IMG/VR virus record: IMGVR_UViG_3300042691_009514
Coordinates: 1 to 26,032 of that record
Strand: one strand, 5' to 3'
Origin: a virus
Length of the DNA: 26,032 nucleotides
In this document: piece by piece, positions 1 through 25,774 of the stretch
How positions within the stretch are numbered: the first letter of the stretch is position 1
How the letters are laid out: each line of letters starts with the position of its first letter
Position numbers and translations under genes: made by a program
The notes under the pieces: model-generated
The model's input: only the letters and a program-made list of their open reading frames with translations
Databases searched by the model: none
What the model was told of the DNA's origin: nothing

Positions 1-1868
1 TAAATACTATTTTTGAAGAAAACCAATACGATAATATAAGAAAGCAACTTAATTATGATGCTACTGTTCTTGGTATATCTATAGCTAAACATGAGTTTCT
101 TCAAGGTTCTGGAGTTGAAATATCTTATGTTGATCCTGCGAATGTGGTATATAGTTATACTGAAGATCCATACTTCAAGGATTGCTTCTATTGGGGTGAG
201 ATTAAAACATTGCCCATCACTGAGTTAATGAAAATAGACCAAAGTCTTACTAAAGAGGATTTGCAAGAAATAACTCAATATAGTCAGGCTTGGTATGACT
301 ACTATAACGTAGCTCAGTTTTATGAGAATAGTGTATTCTCAAGAGACACTTGTACATTACTATATTTTAATTATAAAACCACTAAGAAAGTAGTTTACAA
401 AAAGAAAATGCTTGAGACTGGTGGTACTCGTATTATTGAGAAAGATGATACATTTAATCCTCCTGCTGAAATGATGGAGGAAGGGAACTTTGAGAAGATA
501 GAAAAGACCATAGACGTTTGGTATAATGGTATTATGGTAATGGGAACCAACATTCTTATAAAGTGGGAACTATCTAAGAATATGGTTAGACCTAAGTCTT
601 CTTCTCAGCATGCTATACCAAATTATGTTGCTTGTGCTCCAAGAATGTATAAAGGTGTTATCGAGTCATTGGTTCGTAGAATGATACCTTTTGCTGACCT
701 TATTCAAATCACGCACTTAAAACTACAACAAGTTATTAATAGGACTGTTCCTGATGGAGTGTTTATTGATGCGGATGGACTTAATGAGGTAGACCTTGGT
801 ACTGGTGCGGCATATAATCCTGAGGATGCGCTTAGACTTTACTTCCAAACTGGTTCTGTAATTGGTCGTAGCTATACTCAGGATGGTGATTTCAACAATG
901 CAAGAGTTCCAATTACTCAGTTAACATCTAACTCAGGAGCAAGTAAAACACAAATGCTTATTGCGAACTATAACCATTATATGGATATGCTTCGCTCGGT
1001 AACTGGATTGAACGAAGTCAGGGATGGCTCAACTCCAGATCCTAATGCACTTGTTGGCGTTCAGAAATTAGCTGCATTAAACTCTAATACAGCCACTAGA
1101 CATATACTGGATGGAAGCTTGTTTATTTACAAAACATTGGCTCAAGCATTAACATATAGGGTTGCAGATATATTAGAGTACTCTGACTTTAAAGATGACT
1201 TTATCAATAAAATTGGAAGATACAATGTATCTATATTAAATGATATAAGTGATTTATATATTTATGACTTTGGAATTTTTGTAGAGGTATCTCCAGATGA
1301 AGAACAAAAAGCACAGCTTGAAGCAAATATTCAAATGGCTTTATCTAAAGGAGATATCAACCTTGAAGATGCAATAGATATCAGAGAGCTTAAGAATATA
1401 AAAATTGCTAATCAACTTCTTAAAATGAAACGAGTTAAGAAGCAAGAAAGAGAAGATCAAGTTGTAATGCAAAAACAAGCAATGATTGCTGAACAACAAC
1501 TTCAATCACAACAATTTGCTGCTCAAACTGCAATGCAAAAGATACAAATGGAAACTCAAGCTAAAATGCAGTTAAAACAAGCTGAGATTGCATTTGAGAT
1601 TGAATTACTTCAGAAAGAAGCCGAGATGAAGTCACGACTAATGGCTGAAGAGTTTAACTATAATCAGCAGATTAGAGGACTTGAGGTTCAGAGTCTTAAT
1701 ACTCGTGAGAAAGAGAGAGAAGTTGCAAAAGAAAAGCGGATAAGTCTACAAAACACACAGCAGTCAAAACTAATAAATCAACGTAAAAATAATCTTCCAC
1801 CACTTAACTTTGAGTCTAATGAAGATAGTTTAGATGGGTTTGATTTAGGCGAGTTTGAACCTCGATAA
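1..1868 (+). CDS. Portal protein (5' end outside the window)
   Basis: The dodecameric portal is the DNA entry and exit ring at one vertex of the capsid. The reading frame is open from base 3 to the stop at 1866-1868, so 621 residues are visible and the true start lies upstream; a GTG at 144 is internal, because the sequence before it (including a GVEISYVDPANVVYSY stretch) reads as normal portal protein. The best signature is at about 985-1120, where VTGLNEVRDGSTPDPNALVG is followed by QKLAALNSNTATRHILDG; I recognise this pattern from portals of crAss-like and related podoviruses. The last ~170 residues (about 1400-1750) are Gln/Glu/Lys-rich and should form a long coiled coil, the usual barrel-like C-terminal extension. 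It lies immediately before the scaffold and capsid genes, which is the expected order. The family call is from recognition, not a search, but context and motif agree. Confidence 0.9.
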   Translation, partial: NTIFEENQYDNIRKQLNYDATVLGISIAKHEFLQGSGVEISYVDPANVVYSYTEDPYFKDCFYWGEIKTLPITELMKIDQSLTKEDLQEITQYSQAWYDYYNVAQFYENSVFSRDTCTLLYFNYKTTKKVVYKKKMLETGGTRIIEKDDTFNPPAEMMEEGNFEKIEKTIDVWYNGIMVMGTNILIKWELSKNMVRPKSSSQHAIPNYVACAPRMYKGVIESLVRRMIPFADLIQITHLKLQQVINRTVPDGVFIDADGLNEVDLGTGAAYNPEDALRLYFQTGSVIGRSYTQDGDFNNARVPITQLTSNSGASKTQMLIANYNHYMDMLRSVTGLNEVRDGSTPDPNALVGVQKLAALNSNTATRHILDGSLFIYKTLAQALTYRVADILEYSDFKDDFINKIGRYNVSILNDISDLYIYDFGIFVEVSPDEEQKAQLEANIQMALSKGDINLEDAIDIRELKNIKIANQLLKMKRVKKQEREDQVVMQKQAMIAEQQLQSQQFAAQTAMQKIQMETQAKMQLKQAEIAFEIELLQKEAEMKSRLMAEEFNYNQQIRGLEVQSLNTREKEREVAKEKRISLQNTQQSKLINQRKNNLPPLNFESNEDSLDGFDLGEFEPR

Positions 1869-1910: not shown

Positions 1911-2996
1911 ATGGAAATCAAAGTAAGAGCATTAGATGCTACAGAACAAAAGAGTGTCGCAGAAGTAGAACAAGAATTGCTTGAAAAACACGAACAGCAA
2001 TTCCAAGAGGAACAAGTTGTACAACAAGAAGAAGTACAACAAGAGGTTTCAAATGATTTTGAAGACTTAAGTGAAGAAAAAGTTCTTTCATATATTGGTA
2101 AAAGATATAATAAAGAGATAAAGTCTTTCGATGATTTAATGGCTGAAAGAAAAGAAGCCGCTGAATTACCTGAAGATGTTTCTGCGTATCTAAAGTATAA
2201 GCAAGAAACAGGAAGAGGTTTTGAAGACTTTATTAAACTTAACAAAGATATTGACTCTATTGATTCTGAAACTCTTCTTAAAGAGTATTTGCAATCAACT
2301 GAAGAAGGTCTTGATGAGGATGATATTGATATTCTAATGGATCAATATCGTTATGATGAAGATCTTGATGATGAGTCTACTGTTAAGAAAATAAAGATAG
2401 AAAGAAAAAAGGCTATTGCTGAAGCCAAGAAATATTTCAATTCGCAAAAGGAAAAATACAGAATCCCACTTGAGTCAAGAAAAGATTCTATTCCTGATGA
2501 AGAAAAAGAGATATATGAAAGCTACAAGCAATACATAGAACAGTCGAAGACTATCGAAGAGGAAAACGAAAGAAAGCGGTCATGGTTTGACCGTAAAACT
2601 GATGAAGTTTTTAGTGAACAGTTCAAAGGTTTTGAATTTAACATTAATGACAAAAAGATTACTTTCAACCCTGGAGATAGGAATGAGTTAAAAAAAATCC
2701 AGTCTAATACATCAAACTTCATTAGCAAGTTTTTAGATGAGCAAGGATTAATGAAAGATGCCGCAGGGTATCACAGAGCTCTTTCGATTGCTATGAATCC
2801 CGATAAGTTTGCTAGGTTCTTTTACGAACAAGGTCAGGCTGATGCTGTTGAAGGTACAATGAAAAATATAAAGAATATTCAAATGACCGAAAATAGAGCA
2901 CCTGAAGTAAGCAAGTTAAGGGATGGTATTCAGGTAAAAGCGGTAAATCCTGACCATGGAAGAAGCCTTAAAATCCGTAGTATAAAACGATTGTAA
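1911..2996 (+). CDS. Probable capsid scaffolding protein
   Basis: The product is 361 residues, hydrophilic and highly charged. The N-terminal third is a Glu/Gln-rich stretch (EEQVVQQEEVQQEV near residues 33-46) followed by acidic helical sequence, the middle is Lys/Glu-rich and likely coiled coil, and the C-terminus is basic (SLKIRSIKRL). This build, together with its place between portal and major capsid protein, is typical of scaffolds such as T7 gp9 (about 307 residues), whose basic C-terminus contacts the capsid protein. I chose the ATG at 1911; an in-frame TTG at 1893 would add six residues but is a less likely start. There is no Shine-Dalgarno sequence, only A/T-rich leader. No family signature is recognised, so the function rests on position and composition; it could instead be another head-associated protein. 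Confidence 0.55.
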   Translation: MEIKVRALDATEQKSVAEVEQELLEKHEQQFQEEQVVQQEEVQQEVSNDFEDLSEEKVLSYIGKRYNKEIKSFDDLMAERKEAAELPEDVSAYLKYKQETGRGFEDFIKLNKDIDSIDSETLLKEYLQSTEEGLDEDDIDILMDQYRYDEDLDDESTVKKIKIERKKAIAEAKKYFNSQKEKYRIPLESRKDSIPDEEKEIYESYKQYIEQSKTIEEENERKRSWFDRKTDEVFSEQFKGFEFNINDKKITFNPGDRNELKKIQSNTSNFISKFLDEQGLMKDAAGYHRALSIAMNPDKFARFFYEQGQADAVEGTMKNIKNIQMTENRAPEVSKLRDGIQVKAVNPDHGRSLKIRSIKRL

Positions 2997-3017
2997 AATT
3001 TTAAAAATTAAAAAAAA

Positions 3018-4436
3018 ATGGCAAGTGCTTTATTAAACACCCCTACTTTTGCTCTTCAGCCTGCTGCTGAGCAAGTGGCTTTGTCCACAAACTACATTAC
3101 TAACTTCAACTTCTTGAATCAGTATCTTCCTGATACCTACGAGAAAGAATTTGAGCGTTATGGTAATCGTACAATTGCTTCTTTCCTTCGTATGGTAGGA
3201 GCTGAGATGCCTTCTAACTCTGATCAAATTAAATGGGCAGAGCAAGGTCGTCTTCATATTAAATACACTAACTGTACTTCTGGTGCTGCTATTGGTTCAG
3301 CTACTGCTACATTTACTGTCGCAGATTCAGGAGTTACTTACATCGCAATTCGTGTAGGTCAAACTGTAATGATTCAAAATAATAGCACAGGTGTATTTAA
3401 CAAAGCTATTGTTACTGCTGTTCCTACTGCAACTACTTTCACTGTAGCTTACTATGAGGCTGCTGGTCAAGCTTTTGCTGTATCTACTCAATGTACTGTA
3501 TTTATCTATGGTTCTGAGTTCAAAAAAGGAACTAACGGAATGGTTGGCTCTCTTGAGGCAGAGGATGACATCTACAGCAACAACCCAATTATCATCAAAG
3601 ATAAGTATGCTGTTAACGGTTCTGATATGGCTCAAATCGGATGGGTTGAAGTAACTACTGAGAATAATGCTACAGGATACTTGTGGTATTTGAAATCAGA
3701 GCACGAAACTCGTCTTCGTTTTGAAGATTACCTTGAAACTGCTATGATTGAGGCTGTTCCTGCTGCTGGTGGTTCAGGTGCTGCTACTGCTGGATTCATT
3801 GGTTCAGAAGGTGTATTCTACGTTGTAAACAATCGTGGTAACGTATGGGGTGGTGGTACTCCAACAACACTAGTTGATTGGGATACTATCGTTTCTCGTC
3901 TTGACAAGCAAGGTGCTATTGAAGAAAACGCTTTGTTCGTAAATCGTGGTCTTAGCTTCGATATCGACAACATGTTGGCTACCTTAAATGGTTATGCAGC
4001 ATCTGGTTCTTCAAATGCAGCTTCATTCGGTTTGTTCGACAATGATATCAACATGGCGTTAAACCTTGGATTTACAGGTTTCCGTAGAGGTTATGACTTC
4101 TATAAGTCTGATTGGAAATACCTTAACGATCCAACAATGCGTGGAGGTCTAAGCAATGCTGCTGCAACTGCAACTGGTACAATCACTGGTCTTTTAGTAC
4201 CTGCTGGTTCTACTTCAGTTTATGACCAAATCCTTGGTAAAAACGCTAAGAGACCATTCTTACATGTTCGTTATCGTGCTTCTGAAACAGAAGATCGTCG
4301 TTACAAAACTTGGATTACTGGTTCTGCTGGTGGAGCTCAAACAAGCGACTTAGATGCAATGGAGGTTAACTTCCTTTCTGAGCGTTGTGTTTGTACACTT
4401 GGAGCTAATAACTTCGTATTGTTCCGTTTCGGATAA
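3018..4436 (+). CDS. Major capsid protein, HK97-like fold
   Basis: The 472-residue product forms the icosahedral shell. I recognise the C-terminal half, including GYDFYKSDWKYLND, LLVPAGSTSVYDQILGKNAK, RPFLHVRYRASETEDRRYKT and the final AMEVNFLSERCVCTLGAN, as the major capsid protein family of crAss-like and related Bacteroidota phages. Residues about 84-166 are a Thr/Val/Ala-rich beta segment (GVTYIAIRVGQTVMI, then AIVTAVPTATTFTVAYY) that looks like an inserted beta-barrel in the shell protein. Arginine is written almost always as CGT, whereas neighbouring genes mainly use AGA, and Phe/Asn/Tyr often end in C; this is the codon choice expected of the most highly translated gene. The leader before the ATG is a run of A with no Shine-Dalgarno sequence. 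A strong terminator follows 14 bases after the stop. Confidence 0.92.
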   Translation: MASALLNTPTFALQPAAEQVALSTNYITNFNFLNQYLPDTYEKEFERYGNRTIASFLRMVGAEMPSNSDQIKWAEQGRLHIKYTNCTSGAAIGSATATFTVADSGVTYIAIRVGQTVMIQNNSTGVFNKAIVTAVPTATTFTVAYYEAAGQAFAVSTQCTVFIYGSEFKKGTNGMVGSLEAEDDIYSNNPIIIKDKYAVNGSDMAQIGWVEVTTENNATGYLWYLKSEHETRLRFEDYLETAMIEAVPAAGGSGAATAGFIGSEGVFYVVNNRGNVWGGGTPTTLVDWDTIVSRLDKQGAIEENALFVNRGLSFDIDNMLATLNGYAASGSSNAASFGLFDNDINMALNLGFTGFRRGYDFYKSDWKYLNDPTMRGGLSNAAATATGTITGLLVPAGSTSVYDQILGKNAKRPFLHVRYRASETEDRRYKTWITGSAGGAQTSDLDAMEVNFLSERCVCTLGANNFVLFRFG

Positions 4437-11590: not shown

Positions 11591-12139
11591 ATGGCTACAA
11601 GTGGAAGTTATTATTTAAATGGACCATCATTAACATCATCCACTTCTGTTTTTACAGATAGTGGATTGACTACATTAGCTCCTGATGGATTCTATTCTGA
11701 TGGTGTTATAGTAAGAGAGCAAGTAGGTGGGGTTCTTCTACCTGCTGTTGCTTGTAGTAGTTGTGAACCTCAGTGTCTTGAGTACAGTGCTATATCGGAA
11801 GGTCCATCTGGTGTTGTAGAATATAACGACTGTGAAGGCAATCCTGCTTTAATATATTTATCAGAATTTGAGGAAGTGTTCTTTTGTGCTTTATCAAACT
11901 CTATAGTTCCATCAGAGGGAATTGCTATAATTGAGGTTGGAGCTTGCACTCCACTTGAGTGTACTAGATATCTTGCTGATGCAGAAGCTGAATCTGGAGG
12001 TGTTACTTATACAGATTGTTTTGGAGATATTCAAACAATAACATTAGCAATGGGAGAAACGCAAGAATTCTGCGCATCAGATACGCCATCTACATCAGGA
12101 GGGGTTTTAATTAGTTTGGTAGCTGGTACTTGCCCATAA
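11591..12139 (+). CDS. Cys-repeat virion protein, likely tail accessory or adhesin
   Basis: The product has 182 residues with ten cysteines. The N-terminal ~60 residues (YYLNGPSLTSSTSVFTDSGL, then APDGFYSDGVIVREQVGGVL and CSSC) form a motif I have seen in Bacteroidota phage tail genes. The rest is two tandem modules with identical cysteine spacing: C62, C81, C99, C119 and C124, C143, C161, C181 (steps of 19, 18 and 20 residues in both). Each has a Y-x-DC-x-G turn followed by beta strands and ends in VG/AG-x-C-x. The domain is small, beta-rich and probably disulfide-stabilised outside the cell, which suits a surface-exposed tail decoration or receptor-binding part. Function is inferred. It lies 14 bases after the 1462-residue tail gene and 11 bases before the next. 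Confidence 0.6.
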   Translation: MATSGSYYLNGPSLTSSTSVFTDSGLTTLAPDGFYSDGVIVREQVGGVLLPAVACSSCEPQCLEYSAISEGPSGVVEYNDCEGNPALIYLSEFEEVFFCALSNSIVPSEGIAIIEVGACTPLECTRYLADAEAESGGVTYTDCFGDIQTITLAMGETQEFCASDTPSTSGGVLISLVAGTCP

Positions 12140-15820: not shown

Positions 15821-18800
15821 ATGAACGAAGAAGCACTTATAGACGCATATAATTTATTTAAGAGAAACGGATACGGAGATTCTATAGAGGATTTCAAAGT
15901 ATTAATATCTAAAAATCCTGAAGCTTTAAGAGATTCTTATTCTTTATTTGTATCAAATGGATATGGAGATTCTATAGATGACTATAAAAAATTATTAGGT
16001 GTTGGCGTGGCTCCTATTGTAAAAAAAAAATCCGCTTTGGACTCGTCTTCGGAAGCTGGTTCATTGGTATCGCAAGAATCAGTTAAGCCACAGAAACAAG
16101 TAGCTCCTTTAGCTACACAGCAACAAGTAGCTCCTTTAGCTCCACAGAAACAAGTAGCTCCACAAGTTGATGGTGAACCTCCTGTTAAGCCTATGCAGAA
16201 GCTTACCAAAAAAGATTGGGGATTGGAAAAGATGGCAGAAGAAAAAGAACTTCCTGCTTGGGCACAAGATATTGTTAAAAAGGAAAAAGAAGATATAAAA
16301 AAATTAAAAGTAAGTAAAGCTCTTTTTAAAAATGCAAATAAAAATGCATTAAAAACAGAAAGTTCTTTGCAAGATGCATATAAGAAAGATCCTATATCTC
16401 CTATTTTTACTGTTCAGCCTTTAATTGGTACAGATGGTAAACCAATTTTACAAGAAACAAAACTTGAAGATATAGTAGGTGTTCCTTCTAAAGAGAAAGT
16501 AGAAGAAGAATATAAAAAACTTGACTTAGATAATCCTAACCCATACCTATCAGCTTCTACTTATAGTAGAGAGCCTGTAGATAATGTTCCTATAAATAAA
16601 GATAGTTTTATTGAAGAAACATTTACAGATGAAAAATTAATTAAACTAGGTATAGATCCTGCTGATTTTGATGGATATCTTAATCTTTCAGGATTTAAAG
16701 AAGATTATAAAAAAAGAAGAGATAGAGGTGATTTTAATCCTAATCTTTGGTCAGATTCAAATAAAAAGTTAAACGAAGAATTATATAAAAGTAAATTACT
16801 ATCAAATTATATAGAAACAAAAAATAATAGGGAGGTATTAAAAAGCAAACTTAATTCTGTTATAGCTAGCTATGATGGTAAAAAAATACCTGTAAACAAA
16901 AATGCAAAAGCTTTTGATAATAATTTAATAGCAAAATATACAGAAGAAAATCTCCCTATATTATATCAAAAATTAAAAGAAAGAGATCAATTAAACAAAG
17001 AAAAATACCAAGAATTAACACAAGATAACACTGGTCTAAATTCACTTGCAATAGGAACTAAGAACTTTTTAAAATCAGGTTTAAATGGATTTATGGATGC
17101 TGTTAATAAAACTTCAACTACACTTTATGATGTATTAGGAGCTGAAGACATAGCAGAAGACTTAAGATATTTAAATGAAGAAAGACAACTAGAAAGACCT
17201 TCTGAAAGACAGGTTTCTTTTGCTAGTGGTAAGGTTGTTGATTTTAATGGTAAAAAATATCTTGTAGATGAAAAGGGTACTGTTTATGATAAAGATAATG
17301 AGATAGTTGTAAATGATTTAATTGAAGAAAATTCTTTAAATAAAATATTAGAAGAAGCTAAAAAATCAAAAGAAGAAGATTGGTTTTTTAGTCCACAAGG
17401 TACAGCTGTTCAAACAAGTTCTGTTCTTGGCGATATGATTTGGCAAGTAGCTTATCAAGCTACTCTTGGTCGTGTAGTAAAAGGTTATGGAAATCTTCCT
17501 ATACCAAAAACTACTGCTGATGCAATAATAGCTCAATCATCACTTGGTTATTCTCAAGGATATGAAACAGCATTAAAAGAAGCTAGAGAAGCAGGATTAA
17601 CAGATAAAGAATCAGAAGAAATAGCAGCTGATGCAGCTCAAAGAACAGCTATATGGTATGGTATGACCGCACCTATATCTCCACAGACAAAAGCTGTTGA
17701 ATCTTTATTTGGTTCGGCAGAAAAAGAACTTATCAAAAAAGCGGTCAGTGCATATAAAACAAATGGGAAAAAAGGTTTTATATCTACATTAAATAATGGA
17801 TTTAAAAATATTCCTAAAAAAGCTGTAGGATTTATTGAAGAAGGTGGTAAAGAAGCCATTCAAGAAAACATTCAACAAGCAGGTGAGTCTTTATGGATTA
17901 ACGCACAAAAAAATATAGAAGCAGGTAAAGAAATATCTAACGAGACAATGTCTTTTGATGACTTTGTAAATACATCTGCTCTTTCTTTTCTATCAGGTGG
18001 TATCGTTTCTAATTTAAAGATACCTTCTTTTTCTTCAAATAAGAAAACACAAATAAAAAATCTATATCAATTATCTCAGGATATGGATGTTTTAGATGCG
18101 AATCTAAAAGAGATGGTAGGTAATAAAATAATTTCTCAAGAAGATGCTGATAACGTAAAGAAAGATGTTGTAGCTGTTTCAAGAAATATCACGAGAATAC
18201 CAAAGGATACCAATCCTGATGTTCAACTTGATATTATGAGAAAGCTTAATGATATTGAGGATTTAGAAAATAGTAAAGAAACATTAGATAAATCATTTCA
18301 TTCTCAAATAGACGATAAGATAAAAGAGAAAAGAAATGAAATAAACGAAATTTACAATAAATCATTAACTAAAATAAGTGAACAGCCTATAGCTGAATAT
18401 ATTATTGATAATAACAAATACACCAAAGAAGAGTTCTTCAATCAGTTGCAAGGTAAGACTCAGGATGAGTTAAAGGCAATGAATATTGTCGTTAATAACG
18501 ATGAGCAGACTGCAACAGAGATTGGGAAATTATTTGAAGTACCTGTACAGCCAATAACCAGAGTTGGCGAAACGATGGAGAAAGAATCAGGATTAACTCC
18601 TGAGGAGAGAACTCAAAGAATATCTGAGTTAAACAACTTGCTTGCATCTGATGCAACAAGTCTTCAAGAAACAGGTACAGGTAACTTAATACCTGAAGCA
18701 AGACAAGAGATACAACAAGAATTACAAACCTTAAAAGCAGAACAAGATGCCATTCAAAAGCAAGCAGCAGGTCAAGTACCTGTACAGCCAACAACCAGAG

Positions 18801-21800
18801 TTGGCGAAACGATGGAGGAAGGAAAACCCCAAGCAGAACCTGAAGTCACTACCAAAGAAGGTGTCAAAGAAGAAGTAACGCAAACTATCATCAGTCCTAA
18901 GGTTGTAATCACAGGAACTAGGAATGGGATGGAGAATCTTGAGAGTTCTAATTATGATCAAAAGACTGATACTAAAATAAAAGATGCTAGAGGAAGAGAG
19001 CAAGAGTTTGGAGAGAACAATGTATTAGTTGAGGATGATGGTAAAGGTAATAAGGTAATAAATGTAAAAGCTGATGCTATAGATTCTTTTGGCAGAGCAG
19101 GATTCTTACAAGCATCTGTTATTGTTCCAGCAGATACTGATGTAGATGTAGATGCTGTTAAGCAAGTAGTTGACTCAGAAGTAAATAGAATAAAGGAAAA
19201 GAATAACGAGACTCTTAGATTGAATGAAGTAGATCCAAGAGACTTGTCATTAATGAGAGATGCAATAGTAAACGCTGTTAAGCCAGCTCCAACAACTGAA
19301 GCAGCACCAACAGCTCCTACTGTTAAGGTTGAAGGTAAAATTATACCTGGTAGTAAAGCAGTAATATCTGATATTGAAATAACATATCCAACAGAACAAG
19401 AGAAAACTCAAAGAGAAGAAGAAAGATCTACTAATGAATATATAAATAAAATTTCAGAAGATCTAAATGAAGAGGATGTAAATGTATTAAAATCTGAACT
19501 TGGAGGAACATTTGGTTTATTAAGTGCAAATAATCCTATGACAGAACCATTAAGTGAGGAAGATAATGCAAAACTTAATGAAAAAGCAATTGATTGGCTT
19601 AAAAAAAGAGGATATAATCCAAGACAAATTACTGGTAAGTATGGTCAAGGTGAAAAATCTTTGTTTGTTCCAAAACTAAAAAAACAAGACGCTATAGATT
19701 TTGCTATTGAGTTTAATCAAGAATCAGTAGCTCATTCTGAAGGAATGATTTATCAAGATGGATCAATGAATCCAAGGGTAAAATCTGAAGACGATTTCTT
19801 TTTTAATGAATATACTCCTGGTGCAAATAATATATCTATTGTAAAAACTCCAGAAGGATTTAAGGCATTTAAGGTAGGATATGACTTTAAAACAAAAAAT
19901 CCACCTACTGCGTCTGTTCAGCAAGAGGTAGAACAGTTAGGTAATTTGATATCAGGAACTGATGCTCAGATAGATCAGAAGTCTGATAATATCAAAAATA
20001 AGAAACTGTCAAATGCTGTTTCAAAAGCTGCAAAGTCTCTTTCTAAAATTCTTCCAAATGTGAAGTTTGTTGTTCACGATACAGATGAGTCTTATAGAAA
20101 ATCCACTGATGAGGAAGGAAGATCTCAGTCATCTAGAGGTCAGTATATTCAAAAAGGAAAGACAAAAACTATACATATCAATGGAACAAAAGCAAATAAT
20201 AGGACTATTGCACACGAGGTGTTCCATGCTATTTTATTAGATAGAGTACAATCAGAAAAACAAGCTGCTGATGTGACTAAAAGAATGATTGAGGCTATAT
20301 CTAAAAAGATAGAAGCAAATCCAGAGCTTAAAAAAGATTTGGATGATTTTGCAGCTAACTATAAAGAAAACATTCAAAACGAAGAAAAACTTGCTGAACT
20401 AGTTGGTATACTAGCTGAGAACTACCAAAGCCAAACACAAATTGTAAAAGATATTATTAAGAGATGGCTTAACAAACTATCTCAAATGTTTGGACTATCT
20501 CCAATAACATCTGAGACAGAAGTAATGGAGGTTTTAAACACAATAGCAAGAAAGGTTGCTACTGGTAAGGCTATTAAGGAAAGACAAGTTGCTAAAGTGC
20601 TTGGAGAAAAAGCTGAGTCCAAAATTTCAGAAACAAAAAAGAAACAAGCTGTAACTATAATGCAAGGGAAAGAATCCATGAAAAAATTTGGATTATTACC
20701 AGGTAAAAATGTTACAAGAAAAATTGGTGAAGCTCTTCAAGCAAGACAAAGATCTAAATATGGAATGATAGATCAAAAAGATAATTCATTAGAAGCTAAA
20801 AAGAAAATATCAAACTGGATGGTTGATGAAGTTAAATACTTTATTGAACTTATGGGAGATAAAAGTGGAAAGGGATGGTATGGTGAATTATATCAAAAAT
20901 CATTAGATGCAATGTCTAATGTGTTTCCAGAAATGAAGACTGATCAAAATGCACGGGATTTATTTACAATGCTTGTTGCTATAACATCTGATGGACAAAA
21001 AGTTATGAGCAACTTTAAATTAGCATCCGCAGCATATGATTATTATAAAAAAAATGGTAAAATGCCAAAAACATTACCTGGTCAACGTGTTGCATCTTTT
21101 GAAGCTAATTTAAATAGAATAAATAATTTACTAAAAGAATATAATGGTGATGTTGCCGCTATTAAAAAAGATTTAATGGAGGTAAAATCTATTGAAGAAA
21201 TAAATAAAGAAAGAAAAAAAGAAGGTCTTGAACCTTTATCAACAAATTGGCCTGTTAGTTTTAAAGCTCCATTTGCAGCTTCAGTATTTGGACCTAAATT
21301 AGGAATGTTTTATTCAAATTTATCTGGTAACGAAGCGTATCCAACGCTTGATAGATGGTGGTCTAGAACTTTTAATAGATATAGAGGAACATTAATTCCA
21401 GGATTAAAAGGAGGATTTAATAAAAAAGGAGAAGCGATAGGACTTGATAGATTTAAACAATTACTTGGAAATAAAGAAATGAGTAATGAAGAGGCTCTTT
21501 TAGCTGCAAAATCTTATCGTGATTCTTATGCAGCAAAAGGATATAAATCTGGAACTGAAATAGAGAAAGCAGCAAATACAATATATAAAATAGCATTTGA
21601 AAATTTAAATGATGCTCCATTTACAAAAAATGATCGTCAGTTTATGTATGACACAGTATCTGATGCTGTAAATAAATTAAAAAAACAAGGATACAATTTA
21701 AGTATTGCTGATGTACAAGCAATACTTTGGTACTTTGAAAAGAATCTATATAAAAATCTTGGAGTTCAAGCTAAAATAGAAGGAATAAGTTATGAAGATG

Positions 21801-24800
21801 CTGCCAATTATACATTTGATAAATGGAAAGAATCTGGTAAAAAATTTGATTATAAGATTAATGAATCAGAAGAAGGTCAATCTGTAGAAGATGCTGATGA
21901 AGATATAGAAGAAGATATAATATCTAGAAAACAAGTAGAGTTCAAAGCAAGAAGACAGGAGCCAGTCGCTGGAAACAAGCTATTTAATGAGCCTCTACAA
22001 GATGCCACCACAATTGCAGAGAGATACGCTAAGAAAGCTGGTATTGACATGCAAGAGGTAACACCTATTAGATCTTTAGATAAGGAAAACTCTAAGGCAA
22101 TAGCAAAAGAGTTTGACAAGATGAAGGATGATCCTACAGATCCACAAGTGGCTAAATCATACAAGGCAATGGCAGATGAAACCATTGAACAGTATAAAGA
22201 AATAATAAAGGATGGTTATGTTGTAGAGATAAACAATGAGGAGCCTTACTCAAGTAGTGAGGATATGATAAATGACCTTAGAAAAAATAAAAGGTTTAAG
22301 GTATTCTCTACAGAGTCTGGTTTTGGAGATGAGCCTATAACAGATCAACAAAGAAAAGAAAATCCATTACTAAGAGATAGTGGATTCAAGGATGTAAACG
22401 GACAGACACTACTAGTAAACGATGTGTTTAGATTTGTTCACGACTTCTTTGGACATGCTAAAATGGGTAATAGTTTTGGTCCTGTAGGAGAAGAGAACGC
22501 ATGGTTAATCCACTCTGTAATGTATACACCACTTGCTAGAAGAGCAATGACAAGCGAAACAAGAGGTCAAAACAGTTGGGTTAATTTCAGTGGTGTAAAT
22601 GACGAAGCATTTAAGTTAAGAGATAAGGCAAGAGAACTTCGTAAGGAAGGTAAAACCAATGAGGCAAATGAGCTTGTTGGTCAGGTATATGACATGATGA
22701 AGTTTGCTGATCAGAAGATTGGTCTTATGCCTGAGTGGGTTTCTGGTACAGGAAATGTTGAATCTGCAATAAATGCTAGAAAACAAAAGACATCAGAAAT
22801 AGATAACATTGTAAAAACAGGAAAGCAAAATAACTTCTCTGATGACGCTATACGTCAGTACCTTAAACAACAAGGATACTCAGACATAGAGGCTACAAAT
22901 GCTATTAATAAATATAATGTAAGGGAAGAAGGTGTATTTATTCGATCTGAAGAAAACTTAGGTAAGAAAATAAAATCGTCAATTAATTCTTTCAGAAGAA
23001 GATTCTTATCTGCAAGGTCATTCCTTCCAAAGTCTGTTTTTGCATATAAAGAGCAGAAAGAGGCATTTGTTGCAGCACATTTGAATATTGTAGATCAAAA
23101 TGTAACTGACTTTAATAGGTTATACAATAAGTTTATAGGAGATAAAGACCAACTAGTAAAAGACTTTGATGCTTACTTAACAGGAGATAATACTGTTAGT
23201 CTTCCTATAGAGTTTATGCTTATAGCTAACAGAATGAGGAATCAAATAGATACTCTATCTAAAATGTTAATAGATAATGGTTTGGTTGACGTAGAAATGG
23301 CTAATACCATAAGAAAAAAATTAGGTAAGTATCTTACAAGAGACTATGAGATATATCATAATGACAACTGGAAGGATAAGGTTGAAGAAGAAGTTAAACA
23401 AAAAGCTATTAACTTACTGAGAATCCAATACTTACCAATGGCTCAAGATGCAGCAACTAAGGAGGGTATACCAGTTAATGAGGTACTAGATAGATATGTT
23501 AATAACAGACTTGATGAGTTACTCAATAAAGGAGGTGCTACAAATTTTATAAAAGGATCAAGGCTTGGATCTAAGGATCTATCAGTATTAAAAGAACTCC
23601 AAGACATACCTTATGAAATTAGAGCACTAATGGGAGAGTATGGTGATCCTGCATTAAACTATGCAAACACTATACTCAAACTATCATCACTTGCTGCTAA
23701 CCATAACTTCTTAACTCAAGTTAAGGAGGCTGGAATGGAAAAGTATTTCTTTGAAAAGAATGATCCAAGAAGACCTAAAGAATTTAATACTCAAATTGCG
23801 GTAGAGGGTAGTGAGACAATGAACCCTTTGAATGGTCTATATACCACTAAAGAAATAGCAGAAGCGTTTCAAGCTCAACAAAAACAACTTGGAGACTTGA
23901 TGGAGACTTTTATGAAACTTCAGTCTATTGTTAGGTATGGTAAAACAATTCTATCTGCTGGTACTCACGCCAAGAACGTACTTGGTAACCTAGGTTTTGT
24001 ATGGGCAAACGGTCACTACACAGACATGGACAAAGCATATAGCATTGTAAAGAATGACTTACTAAAAGCCAATAACCAAGAGAAAAGAGAGATAATGGAG
24101 AACTATATCAGATTAGGTATAGTTAAACAGTCAGCTGGTATTGGAGAAATCATGGATATGTTTAAGGATGCCAACTTTAACACAGCTATGGCATCAAGAC
24201 TTAACAATAAAAAATTAAATATTTTAGGAAAAGCAAAAAGATTTTTATTCCAAGCTAAAAAATTTGCAGAGGATCTATACCAAGCTGAAGATGACTTCTT
24301 TAAAATAGTAGCATATGAGAACGAGTTAAGAAGATACTCAAAAGCTTTATTTGATAAATCTAAAAAAGACTTAACTCCTAAAGAACTTGAGCAGGTAAAT
24401 AAAGTAGTTGCAGAAATAGTTAAGAATACTTATCCAACATACAGTAGGATACCTGAGGCGATCAAGATGATCAGAAGGTTCCCATTCATAGGAAACTTTG
24501 TATCGTTTCAAGCTGAGGCATATAGAACTGCATTTAACACCATGGCTCTTGCAAAAAATGAAATATTATCTGATAATCCTGAGATAAGAAAAATAGGAGC
24601 TATAAGACTTGCTGGTGCTACAACATACATATCAGCTAAAACAGCAGTACTACAATATTTTGGAATGGCTGTTGGGACAGGACTTACTGGAGTATTTGGA
24701 TACTTGTTTGATAATGATGATGAAGAAGAAAAGGATAAGGATATCAGAGAGTTTATAGCTCCTTGGTCTAAAAAGTCTGATCTAATGGTTTTAAGTGCTG

Positions 24801-25774
24801 GTGATGGTAAAATAAAATACATAGACTTTAGTGCTTCAGATCCTCATGGTGGTATCAAGAAAGCAATTAATGCGTTCCTCCTTGGAGAGTCAACAACAGA
24901 TAGTTTTATAGATGGAGTTGTAGGAGTTCTTGAACCATTTATAGGAGAGGAGATGACTACATCAACTATACTTTCTTTGAAGAACAATAGAGATAAGAAT
25001 GGTAATCAGATATGGAATCCAGAAGATACTGAAGCAGAAAAAATGAATGCAATCTTAGGAGAGGTATATAAATTAATGGAACCAGGAACTGCTTCTTCAA
25101 TAAGAAGAGGTATAGCATCTGAAGATAAAGCCAATGAACTTATAGCTAACATAACTGGATTCAGAATATATGATGTAGATGTTAATAAGCAGTTTGGGTT
25201 TAAAGTTAAAGACTACTCAGAAAGAATTAAAGATGCAAGAAGACTATATAACTCTGTGCTGTATAAAAAAGAATCCACAGAAGAAGATAAGAAAAATGCT
25301 TTAAACAAAGCAGATAATGCTCTTAAAGAAATATATGGAGAGCTATCAACAGTATACAACTCTGCTGAAAGACTTGGAGTAAAACCTGAAGACTTGAAGA
25401 ATTTAATGAAGACTTTTGGTGATATGGGTAAGGATGACATAACAAAAATACAGTCAGGAAAAATACCGAGTCTAAAACAAAATATAGAACAAGAGAAGTA
25501 TAAAGAATCTCTTCTAATCGACAAACAGAGTGGTGTAAGGTATGACAATCAGAACGATCTCAAGAGATATAATAGAGATCTTTGGGAGAAAAACTTTGGT
25601 GAGAAATCTGATTACTACAAATCTAAAAAAGGAGAAAGGGAAGAAAGAAAGAAACTAAGAGAAGAAAAAGATGAGGAGTATGACTATACTCCAAAGAAAA
25701 AGAAAAATAAAGATGGATCTCGTAAGAGAAAATATAATATGTATTATGACACACGTTATGAGATACGTTATTAA
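15821..25774 (+). CDS. Giant 3317-residue polyvalent virion protein with zincin protease motif
   Basis: Single uninterrupted frame of 9,954 bp, last gene of the late block, in the T7 gp16 position, so probably packaged and injected with the DNA. Visible parts: residues 8-60, twin LFxxNGYGDSIxDx(K) repeats; 93-115, QVAPLA linker repeats; about 528-690, a hydrophobic Ala/Gly segment; 908-1000, two PVQPxTRVGETME copies; about 1215-1360, a DUF3293-like domain (GGTFGLLSANNP, ITGKYGQGEKSLFVPKLK); about 1395-1560, a zincin with IAHEVFHAIL (H1465, E1466, H1469) and a candidate third ligand E1526 in EEKLAE; about 1614-2017, a helical domain with TLDRWWSRTFNRYRG; about 2041-2309, a conserved domain with VHDFFGHAKMG (H2207), ENAWLIHSVMYTPLARRAM and SETRGQNSW; about 2377-3004, a long helical region, perhaps LPD38-like; 2931-2965, a likely membrane helix; 3267-3317, a Lys/Arg-rich tail. 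Such multidomain 'polyvalent' proteins are known in phages and conjugative elements. No lytic transglycosylase motif was recognised. Confidence 0.85.
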   Translation: MNEEALIDAYNLFKRNGYGDSIEDFKVLISKNPEALRDSYSLFVSNGYGDSIDDYKKLLGVGVAPIVKKKSALDSSSEAGSLVSQESVKPQKQVAPLATQQQVAPLAPQKQVAPQVDGEPPVKPMQKLTKKDWGLEKMAEEKELPAWAQDIVKKEKEDIKKLKVSKALFKNANKNALKTESSLQDAYKKDPISPIFTVQPLIGTDGKPILQETKLEDIVGVPSKEKVEEEYKKLDLDNPNPYLSASTYSREPVDNVPINKDSFIEETFTDEKLIKLGIDPADFDGYLNLSGFKEDYKKRRDRGDFNPNLWSDSNKKLNEELYKSKLLSNYIETKNNREVLKSKLNSVIASYDGKKIPVNKNAKAFDNNLIAKYTEENLPILYQKLKERDQLNKEKYQELTQDNTGLNSLAIGTKNFLKSGLNGFMDAVNKTSTTLYDVLGAEDIAEDLRYLNEERQLERPSERQVSFASGKVVDFNGKKYLVDEKGTVYDKDNEIVVNDLIEENSLNKILEEAKKSKEEDWFFSPQGTAVQTSSVLGDMIWQVAYQATLGRVVKGYGNLPIPKTTADAIIAQSSLGYSQGYETALKEAREAGLTDKESEEIAADAAQRTAIWYGMTAPISPQTKAVESLFGSAEKELIKKAVSAYKTNGKKGFISTLNNGFKNIPKKAVGFIEEGGKEAIQENIQQAGESLWINAQKNIEAGKEISNETMSFDDFVNTSALSFLSGGIVSNLKIPSFSSNKKTQIKNLYQLSQDMDVLDANLKEMVGNKIISQEDADNVKKDVVAVSRNITRIPKDTNPDVQLDIMRKLNDIEDLENSKETLDKSFHSQIDDKIKEKRNEINEIYNKSLTKISEQPIAEYIIDNNKYTKEEFFNQLQGKTQDELKAMNIVVNNDEQTATEIGKLFEVPVQPITRVGETMEKESGLTPEERTQRISELNNLLASDATSLQETGTGNLIPEARQEIQQELQTLKAEQDAIQKQAAGQVPVQPTTRVGETMEEGKPQAEPEVTTKEGVKEEVTQTIISPKVVITGTRNGMENLESSNYDQKTDTKIKDARGREQEFGENNVLVEDDGKGNKVINVKADAIDSFGRAGFLQASVIVPADTDVDVDAVKQVVDSEVNRIKEKNNETLRLNEVDPRDLSLMRDAIVNAVKPAPTTEAAPTAPTVKVEGKIIPGSKAVISDIEITYPTEQEKTQREEERSTNEYINKISEDLNEEDVNVLKSELGGTFGLLSANNPMTEPLSEEDNAKLNEKAIDWLKKRGYNPRQITGKYGQGEKSLFVPKLKKQDAIDFAIEFNQESVAHSEGMIYQDGSMNPRVKSEDDFFFNEYTPGANNISIVKTPEGFKAFKVGYDFKTKNPPTASVQQEVEQLGNLISGTDAQIDQKSDNIKNKKLSNAVSKAAKSLSKILPNVKFVVHDTDESYRKSTDEEGRSQSSRGQYIQKGKTKTIHINGTKANNRTIAHEVFHAILLDRVQSEKQAADVTKRMIEAISKKIEANPELKKDLDDFAANYKENIQNEEKLAELVGILAENYQSQTQIVKDIIKRWLNKLSQMFGLSPITSETEVMEVLNTIARKVATGKAIKERQVAKVLGEKAESKISETKKKQAVTIMQGKESMKKFGLLPGKNVTRKIGEALQARQRSKYGMIDQKDNSLEAKKKISNWMVDEVKYFIELMGDKSGKGWYGELYQKSLDAMSNVFPEMKTDQNARDLFTMLVAITSDGQKVMSNFKLASAAYDYYKKNGKMPKTLPGQRVASFEANLNRINNLLKEYNGDVAAIKKDLMEVKSIEEINKERKKEGLEPLSTNWPVSFKAPFAASVFGPKLGMFYSNLSGNEAYPTLDRWWSRTFNRYRGTLIPGLKGGFNKKGEAIGLDRFKQLLGNKEMSNEEALLAAKSYRDSYAAKGYKSGTEIEKAANTIYKIAFENLNDAPFTKNDRQFMYDTVSDAVNKLKKQGYNLSIADVQAILWYFEKNLYKNLGVQAKIEGISYEDAANYTFDKWKESGKKFDYKINESEEGQSVEDADEDIEEDIISRKQVEFKARRQEPVAGNKLFNEPLQDATTIAERYAKKAGIDMQEVTPIRSLDKENSKAIAKEFDKMKDDPTDPQVAKSYKAMADETIEQYKEIIKDGYVVEINNEEPYSSSEDMINDLRKNKRFKVFSTESGFGDEPITDQQRKENPLLRDSGFKDVNGQTLLVNDVFRFVHDFFGHAKMGNSFGPVGEENAWLIHSVMYTPLARRAMTSETRGQNSWVNFSGVNDEAFKLRDKARELRKEGKTNEANELVGQVYDMMKFADQKIGLMPEWVSGTGNVESAINARKQKTSEIDNIVKTGKQNNFSDDAIRQYLKQQGYSDIEATNAINKYNVREEGVFIRSEENLGKKIKSSINSFRRRFLSARSFLPKSVFAYKEQKEAFVAAHLNIVDQNVTDFNRLYNKFIGDKDQLVKDFDAYLTGDNTVSLPIEFMLIANRMRNQIDTLSKMLIDNGLVDVEMANTIRKKLGKYLTRDYEIYHNDNWKDKVEEEVKQKAINLLRIQYLPMAQDAATKEGIPVNEVLDRYVNNRLDELLNKGGATNFIKGSRLGSKDLSVLKELQDIPYEIRALMGEYGDPALNYANTILKLSSLAANHNFLTQVKEAGMEKYFFEKNDPRRPKEFNTQIAVEGSETMNPLNGLYTTKEIAEAFQAQQKQLGDLMETFMKLQSIVRYGKTILSAGTHAKNVLGNLGFVWANGHYTDMDKAYSIVKNDLLKANNQEKREIMENYIRLGIVKQSAGIGEIMDMFKDANFNTAMASRLNNKKLNILGKAKRFLFQAKKFAEDLYQAEDDFFKIVAYENELRRYSKALFDKSKKDLTPKELEQVNKVVAEIVKNTYPTYSRIPEAIKMIRRFPFIGNFVSFQAEAYRTAFNTMALAKNEILSDNPEIRKIGAIRLAGATTYISAKTAVLQYFGMAVGTGLTGVFGYLFDNDDEEEKDKDIREFIAPWSKKSDLMVLSAGDGKIKYIDFSASDPHGGIKKAINAFLLGESTTDSFIDGVVGVLEPFIGEEMTTSTILSLKNNRDKNGNQIWNPEDTEAEKMNAILGEVYKLMEPGTASSIRRGIASEDKANELIANITGFRIYDVDVNKQFGFKVKDYSERIKDARRLYNSVLYKKESTEEDKKNALNKADNALKEIYGELSTVYNSAERLGVKPEDLKNLMKTFGDMGKDDITKIQSGKIPSLKQNIEQEKYKESLLIDKQSGVRYDNQNDLKRYNRDLWEKNFGEKSDYYKSKKGEREERKKLREEKDEEYDYTPKKKKNKDGSRKRKYNMYYDTRYEIRY
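16091..16161 (+). repeat. 27-bp tandem repeat, 2.6 copies, coding QVAPLA linker
   Basis: Units at 16091-16117 and 16118-16144, with a partial third from 16145 to 16161, share CAAGTAGCTCCTTTAGCT-type sequence. In frame they give KQVAPLATQ, QQVAPLAPQ and KQVAPQ, a Pro/Ala/Gln-rich flexible linker between the N-terminal repeats and the body of the giant protein. Confidence 0.9.
18537..18817 (+). repeat. Pair of 44-bp direct repeats inside the giant gene
   Basis: Copies at 18537-18580 and 18774-18817 differ at one base only. They are 237 bp apart (79 codons, in frame) and encode VPVQPITRVGETME and VPVQPTTRVGETME. The intervening ~65 residues are a Gln/Glu-rich helical spacer (LTPEERTQRISELNNLLA and so on). 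Near identity at DNA level implies recent duplication or ongoing homogenisation by recombination. Confidence 0.9.

Follow-up and report, generated by a model that had tools for sequence, protein, structure and literature searches.

What is the role of a single phage protein of 3317 residues, encoded at the very end of a block of structural genes? The DNA analysed here, hereafter the window, is a 26,032-base virus fragment of IMG/VR. The gene for this giant protein starts with ATG, contains no internal stop, occupies 38.2% of the window, and is the final gene of a one-strand structural block that begins with a truncated portal gene. The first-pass annotation had described it in the same terms, as one intact gene of about 38% of the window closing a T7-like late block, and had proposed an injected polyvalent protein composed of at least five conserved modules.

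The resemblance to T7 was found to hold for the gene order and the cysteine content, but not for kinship, because homologues of the structural block are found in Cellulophaga phages phi38:1 and phi46:3, Flavobacterium elemo phages, and the Manatee Spring podovirus ctfjg026. The kinship is anchored by the 1462-residue structural protein (Table 1), and the phage is a Bacteroidota podovirus. Relatives of the giant protein itself are encoded by Cellulophaga phages of Pachyviridae and Pervagoviridae, by Flavobacterium elemo phages, and by about 80 IMG/VR contigs. A very large gene, in most cases annotated as ‘structural protein’, is located at or near the end of the late block in phi38:1, phi46:3, the elemo phages, and ctfjg026. 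In the middle of the block of the window, a 182-residue protein (11591-12139) contains 10 cysteines, and the gene at the same place of ctfjg026 is annotated as ‘putative glycosidase’. Chaperonin genes are also present among these phages: GroEL and a 10-kDa subunit in ctfjg026 (L002:1-983), and GroES (gp089, L004:9114-9698) directly ahead of the terminase gene in phi38:1. These genes are possibly tied to the folding of the giant protein.

Table 1. Features of the giant gene and its neighbours. Positions are those of the window; residues are those of the giant protein.
Feature	Residues	Positions	Strand	Basis or remark
Portal protein, 5' truncated		3..1868	+	phrog_6547, E 5.8e-92
Virion structural protein, 1462 aa		7188..11576	+	19 Cys; phrog_14478, E 1.5e-225; 50% identity to ctfjg026
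Small protein of the predicted ejection triad, 291 aa		13393..14268	+	0 Cys; place of T7 gp14 / N4 gp52
Medium protein of the predicted ejection triad, 515 aa		14271..15818	+	0 Cys; place of T7 gp15 / N4 gp51
Giant protein (predicted ejection/polyvalent protein), 3317 aa		15821..25774	+	0 Cys
N-terminal tandem repeat of about 40 aa	1-81	15821..16063	+	common to ctfjg026 and about 15 other ORFs
N-core, backbone part 1	391-904	16991..18532	+	HMM in 68 ORFs, including phi38:1, phi18:3, elemoE
N-side connector, DAxQKQ linker from N-core to first cargo module		18737..18880	+	motif search; DAIQKQ at 976
Cargo 1, DUF3293 module	1172-1380	19334..19960	+	Pfam PF11697, E 5.8e-08, residues 1234-1303
Cargo 2, zincin metallopeptidase-like module	1387-1619	19979..20677	+	HEVFH at 1465
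Cargo 3, TLDRWWSR helical domain	1674-2000	20840..21820	+	AlphaFold pLDDT 85
Cargo 4, HDxFGH domain	2047-2308	21959..22744	+	HDFFGH at 2207; phrog_3170, E 1.7e-18; AlphaFold pLDDT 91
C-side connector, SDxxIxxYLxxxGY helical motif	~2339-2372	22835..22936	+	fixed spacing to C-core
C-core, backbone part 2	2480-3226	23258..25498	+	in 89 ORFs; phrog_22602 ‘virion structural protein’, E 1.6e-27

The organization of the giant protein was analysed by scanning IMG/VR with profiles of its modules, followed by an HMM survey of ORFs. The protein is built of a conserved two-ended backbone, N-core and C-core, around an exchangeable cargo bay. All five modules proposed at first, DUF3293, zincin, TLDRWWSR, HDxFGH, and the C-terminal core, proved to be real and conserved, and the N-core, the N-terminal tandem repeat, and the two connectors flanking the cargo were added to them. 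The surveyed ORFs, ranging from 1.3 to 3.9 thousand residues (kaa), carry N-core and/or C-core on the sides of a variable middle, which consists of practically nothing, zincin, zincin plus TLDRWWSR, HDxFGH plus zincin, DUF3293 plus zincin, or all four cargo modules; the order of modules changes as well, being DUF3293, zincin with the HExxH motif, TLDRWWSR, and HDxFGH in the window. A second class of giants has the same N-core and cargo and a different C-terminus; this other C-terminus class of Bacteroidota gave an hhalign P of 0.0002 over 96 columns against the C-core, a lead only.

The borders of the bay are marked by the connectors. The DAxQKQ motif was detected 24 times in 559 kaa of module-bearing ORFs vs 0 times in 246 kaa of other ORFs, and this linker is followed by DUF3293, zincin, or HDxFGH. 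On the other side, the SDxxIxxYLxxxGY motif is located 142-152 residues ahead of the C-core HMM, independent of the cargo. Near the N-side connector, the linker of the giant includes an internal direct repeat, VPVQPxTRVGETMEx, at residues 907 and ~983 (18539-18800). In pairwise comparison, the C-terminal 780 residues of the giant match gp123 of Cellulophaga phage phi18:3, the C-core of which aligns with residues 2443-3220. A match to LPD38, the phage-type C-terminus of polyvalent proteins, was given by one of 38 C-cores (E 0.0015), and the C-termini of proteobacterial giants were not accepted as homologues of the C-core (hhalign P 0.051). No strongly hydrophobic membrane segment was found in the giant protein.

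Modules have been exchanged recently, as naturally recorded in near-identical phages whose giants differ chiefly in the bay. The record is provided by three contigs from different metagenomes (L103, L104, and L105; giants of 2417, 2174, and 2987 residues), in which the C-parts are 96-98% identical and the N-parts 78-94%, while the middles are unrelated or absent, and by another pair (L113 vs L119) that shares a C-part at 98.7% and differs ahead of it. One further giant (L094) is 68% identical to that of the window over the C-part and carries none of its cargo. The pieces of the window giant also differ in kinship: the DUF3293 plus zincin piece (1173-1610) has its counterpart in elemoE, at 55% identity, TLDRWWSR and HDxFGH resemble the giant gene of the podovirus ctQRb9, and the giant of Limnohabitans phage DC33 shares TLDRWWSR only. 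The 39-kb record of DC33 (PQ492659, L007) has a podovirus-like gene order, and its taxonomy line, Inoviridae, looks wrong.

Among the cargo modules, DUF3293 was the sole match of the whole giant in searches of Pfam, NCBIfam, and PADLOC, with 33.7 bits against the curated cutoff of 25. The H, E, and H of the zincin motif are invariant in 28 members and the HExxH is intact in the window; a faint match of this module to IrrE was observed (E 0.12). The structure of TLDRWWSR matches phage proteins that are named after ART-PolyVal, RelA/SpoT, and LPD domains (E 3e-15). The HDxFGH domain has at least 590 viral relatives, and in Bacteroidota, Actinomycetota, and Pseudomonadota it also occurs as a protein of its own. 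Pfam includes no model of HDxFGH or of TLDRWWSR, and NCBIfam none of HDxFGH. Structure prediction by AlphaFold yielded folded domains for both HDxFGH and TLDRWWSR. Profile searches identified DUF3293, and gave no convincing relative for any module among PDB sequence profiles. Foldseek against PDB gave nothing significant for HDxFGH or TLDRWWSR.

The HDxFGH domain is also found outside the giants. A 433-residue protein of mycobacteriophages (Alice gp99, L008:4779-6080, and 187 mycobacteriophage records) includes this domain, and its gene is located downstream of a 753-residue gene of unknown function. HDxFGH proteins of 521 residues with equal match scores were detected in four records named Croceicoccus, Microbacterium, and Acidobacteria (L285, L287, L288, and L320), which suggests mis-binned contigs or a mobile element.

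Physical evidence for ejection of the giant protein comes from its lack of cysteine. It contains no cysteine in 3317 residues, vs about 32 expected from the rate of other proteins of the window (P ~1e-14). ORFs with N-core or C-core altogether contain 0.08 Cys per 1000 over 260,492 residues, vs 8.6 per 1000 in 464 other ORFs on the same contigs. The two genes preceding the giant are Cys-free in 71 of 77 and 56 of 71 related loci. Together with the giant, they form the row of adjacent small, medium, and giant Cys-poor virion genes that characterizes an ejection triad of the T7/N4 type, as defined by function; for comparison, T7 gp15 and gp16 have no cysteine and gp14 has one, N4 gp50, gp51, and gp52 have none, and the crAss001 cargo proteins have 0-2. 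For N4-like virion RNA polymerases (vRNAPs), the absence of cysteine was interpreted by the authors as a need of passage through the tail and the oxidising periplasm (PMC3715699, PMC3915230).

The same exclusion is observed for the cargo. Free bacterial HDxFGH proteins contain 161 Cys in 12,441 residues (12.9 per 1000), vs 3 in 22,678 residues (about 0.1 per 1000) in viral giants and 0 in 3,419 residues in giants of bacterial genomes. A cysteine follows GQx in 36 of 50 free copies, and is replaced in giants by serine or another residue, never cysteine. Free copies of DUF3293 mostly contain 1-4 cysteines, and giant-borne copies none. The giant-borne HDxFGH domains, however, belong mostly to one clade, and a sign test across the phylogeny, with 3 independent pairs, was underpowered; the Cys loss may represent a few events. 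The case for ejection therefore rests on the agreement of several unrelated modules and the two upstream genes. Cysteine exclusion, as seen in these, offers a simple mark by which ejected proteins may be recognised, and one that can be tested.

MS/MS identified the backbone orthologue, phi18:3 gp123, as a protein of the virion (GenBank record note). Since gp123 is devoid of the cargo of the window giant, packaging of the cargo part is a prediction. Triad order, cysteine absence, and the virion annotation of gp123 agree with the ejection-protein slot assigned to the giant at first, and the protein is very probably a component of the virion that enters the bacterium as a threaded chain, together with the DNA. 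Alternatively, the giant might remain inside the particle as a scaffold or structural protein. Its domains would then have structural roles, and its lack of cysteine would be no more than a consequence of assembly or head chemistry. The annotation of relatives as ‘virion structural protein’ is in line with this reading, as is the lack of cysteine in the N4 major head protein and the T7 scaffold, but the portal and the 1462-residue structural protein of the same window keep 3 and 19 cysteines, free-standing homologues of the cargo are Cys-rich, the HExxH and HDxFGH residues of the cargo are invariant, and some backbones carry little or no cargo; we consider it improbable. Even less probable is that the virion holds the backbone only, the cargo having been removed ahead of packaging, for disposal or maturation, by cleavage in the style of a prohead protease. 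A conserved connector is present at the junction, and in three contigs (L126, L150, and L151) the giant is split into an N-core ORF (~930 residues) and an ORF of zincin plus C-core (~1940 residues), but the cargo is as Cys-free as the backbone, which would be needless if it never travelled.

If the cargo enters the host, on what does it act? The first-pass annotation had pointed to host defence or envelope proteins. The chromosomal relatives of two modules point instead to a small-molecule substrate. The free HDxFGH gene of Aquimarina, Ulvibacter, Aureispira, Enterovibrio, and others has a gene for an AdoHcyase-NAD-domain protein on one side and a DUF3293 gene on the other, and this chromosomal unit of AdoHcyase-like, HDxFGH, and DUF3293 was identified in L268, L272, L274, L276, L278, L279, L281, L282, L283, L298, and L273:6798-9239. 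In Actinophytocola (L273), all three are combined in one chain of 814 residues, and a genome of the BD1-7 clade encodes an HDxFGH-DUF3293 fusion (fusions overall in L273, L281, and L282). Some actinobacterial HDxFGH copies are near genes for AdoHcyase, homocysteine S-methyltransferase, a Cys/Met PLP-enzyme, and class V aminotransferase. Based on the operon partnership and the fusions, the two cargo modules of the window most likely form a functional pair. As judged from these gene neighbourhoods, HDxFGH and DUF3293 probably act on S-adenosylhomocysteine/homocysteine-type metabolism and not on envelope proteins. The link is based on genes in chromosomes, and the substrate may have become a different one in the phage copies. 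The three-gene unit also offers a route to assay two uncharacterised families.

The opposing proposal is that the protein is injected but its cargo targets proteins of the host or of rival phages, by proteolysis or modification, as in classic polyvalent counter-defence, the metabolic link being incidental. Polyvalent proteins often have zincin as their hub, according to the sections of the survey by Iyer et al. (2017, PMC5512222) considered here, and TLDRWWSR accompanies ART-PolyVal and RelA/SpoT, with ART-PolyVal present in 4 of 13 relatives. This proposal is at odds with the operon partnership of chromosomal HDxFGH and DUF3293 and their fusion with an AdoHcyase-like protein, and no PADLOC family matches the giant; it is rather unlikely, though more credible than retention in the particle.

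With respect to the chemistry of HDxFGH, a fold distantly related to the biopterin-type aromatic amino acid hydroxylases, including an iron site of the form HxxxGH...E, may tentatively be considered, with more doubt than confidence; the group hydroxylated would be on an amino acid or on a small molecule related to one. The domain motif is similar to the iron motif of these hydroxylases, HD/HExxGH...E, which in bacterial PAH reads EPDxFHDVFGH, and this idea predated the comparisons that follow. The hhalign score against the hydroxylase was 32.5 (P 0.001), compared with a maximum of 22.9 over 300 column shuffles and 9.0 for the reversed profile, but its probability was 22% and the expected third ligand was left unpaired. 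Foldseek against PDB placed tryptophan hydroxylase 2 at ranks 2 and 4, albeit without significance (E 0.75, TM-scores very low), and the PF00351 HMM gave no match in the window.

Taken together, we regard it as likely that the giant is the inner member of a three-protein ejection set, in which a backbone with connectors delivers exchangeable enzyme-like cargo with the first DNA. N-core and C-core would load the chain into the virion and let it be threaded through the tail and the envelope, and the bay between the two connectors would hold enzyme-like domains arriving with the first DNA. After delivery, zincin would probably cut the chain into working pieces, by analogy with the zincins of polyvalent proteins, which are proposed, in the sections considered of that survey (PMC5512222), to cleave the chain into units. 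DUF3293 and HDxFGH would then probably act jointly on an S-adenosylhomocysteine/homocysteine-type metabolite, and the presumed aim might be, for instance, to disturb or support methylation in the first minutes of infection. In a more specific version, the plug-in bay of the carrier would bring in DUF3293 together with an iron-dependent, hydroxylase-like HDxFGH as an enzyme pair for S-adenosylhomocysteine/homocysteine chemistry and thereby alter the methylation pool of the host before expression of any phage gene, with selection for passage stripping almost all cysteines from every domain joining the bay; this version is unlikely as a whole and still speculative.

We know of no similarity between the giant and the SAM lyase (SAMase) of phage T3, and T3 SAMase is made after entry while the substrate of the giant is a prediction. 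A possible parallel nevertheless lies in its counter-restriction, in which the S-adenosyl pool is hit very early in infection (PMC7877911, PMC8406200). The closest likeness in kind is to the polyvalent proteins (PMC5512222), for which the sections considered here describe unlike domains in one chain with a zincin hub, a neighbourhood of structural genes, and predicted injection. The giant combines four cargo domains with a backbone, includes zincin (common in such proteins, not obligatory), and is in the company of described polyvalent domains, as expected for the polyvalent protein that it was first named, but differs in HDxFGH and TLDRWWSR. Those sections describe no N-core/C-core backbone with connectors and no Cys-free triad, and make no mention of DUF3293, cysteine, or Cellulophaga; DUF3293 is not mentioned in the literature searched. 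The earlier suggestion that the domain set is undescribed thus holds within Pfam, NCBIfam, and the literature searched. Injected polyvalent proteins are a kind already known, and the backbone, the two domains without a model, and the operon link look new.

The vRNAPs of N4-like phages (Schitoviridae gp50; DEV gp71) are likewise Cys-free, multi-domain giants of a triad, of about 3400-3500 residues, but no RNA polymerase domain was detected in the window giant (Pfam), and it carries other cargo. The T7 gp14-gp15-gp16 ejectosome shares the order of small, medium, and giant at the block end and a Cys-poor or Cys-free composition; the giant is 2.5 times longer than gp16, and no sequence homology of the C-core to gp16 was detected (hhalign P 0.22). 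No Pfam or NCBIfam match to a lysozyme or transglycosylase domain was found in the giant. The crAss001 proteins gp45-gp47, gp49, and gp50 are also large, Cys-poor, virion-carried proteins of a Bacteroidota podovirus, and partial unfolding on exit was proposed for the capsid and tail cargo of this phage (PMC10172136); they differ in being of the RNA-polymerase type and on separate chains. Further close systems are phi18:3 gp123, phi38:1 gp101, and the giant genes of the elemo phages, all backbone homologues in the same slot. Those of phi18:3 and phi38:1 are without the cargo modules of the window, and the elemo giant shares DUF3293 and zincin but is without TLDRWWSR, HDxFGH, and a C-core of the window type. 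What had been a guess at a giant injected polyvalent protein is thereby replaced by a defined architecture of N-core, connector, cargo, connector, and C-core, which can be recognised in other genomes.
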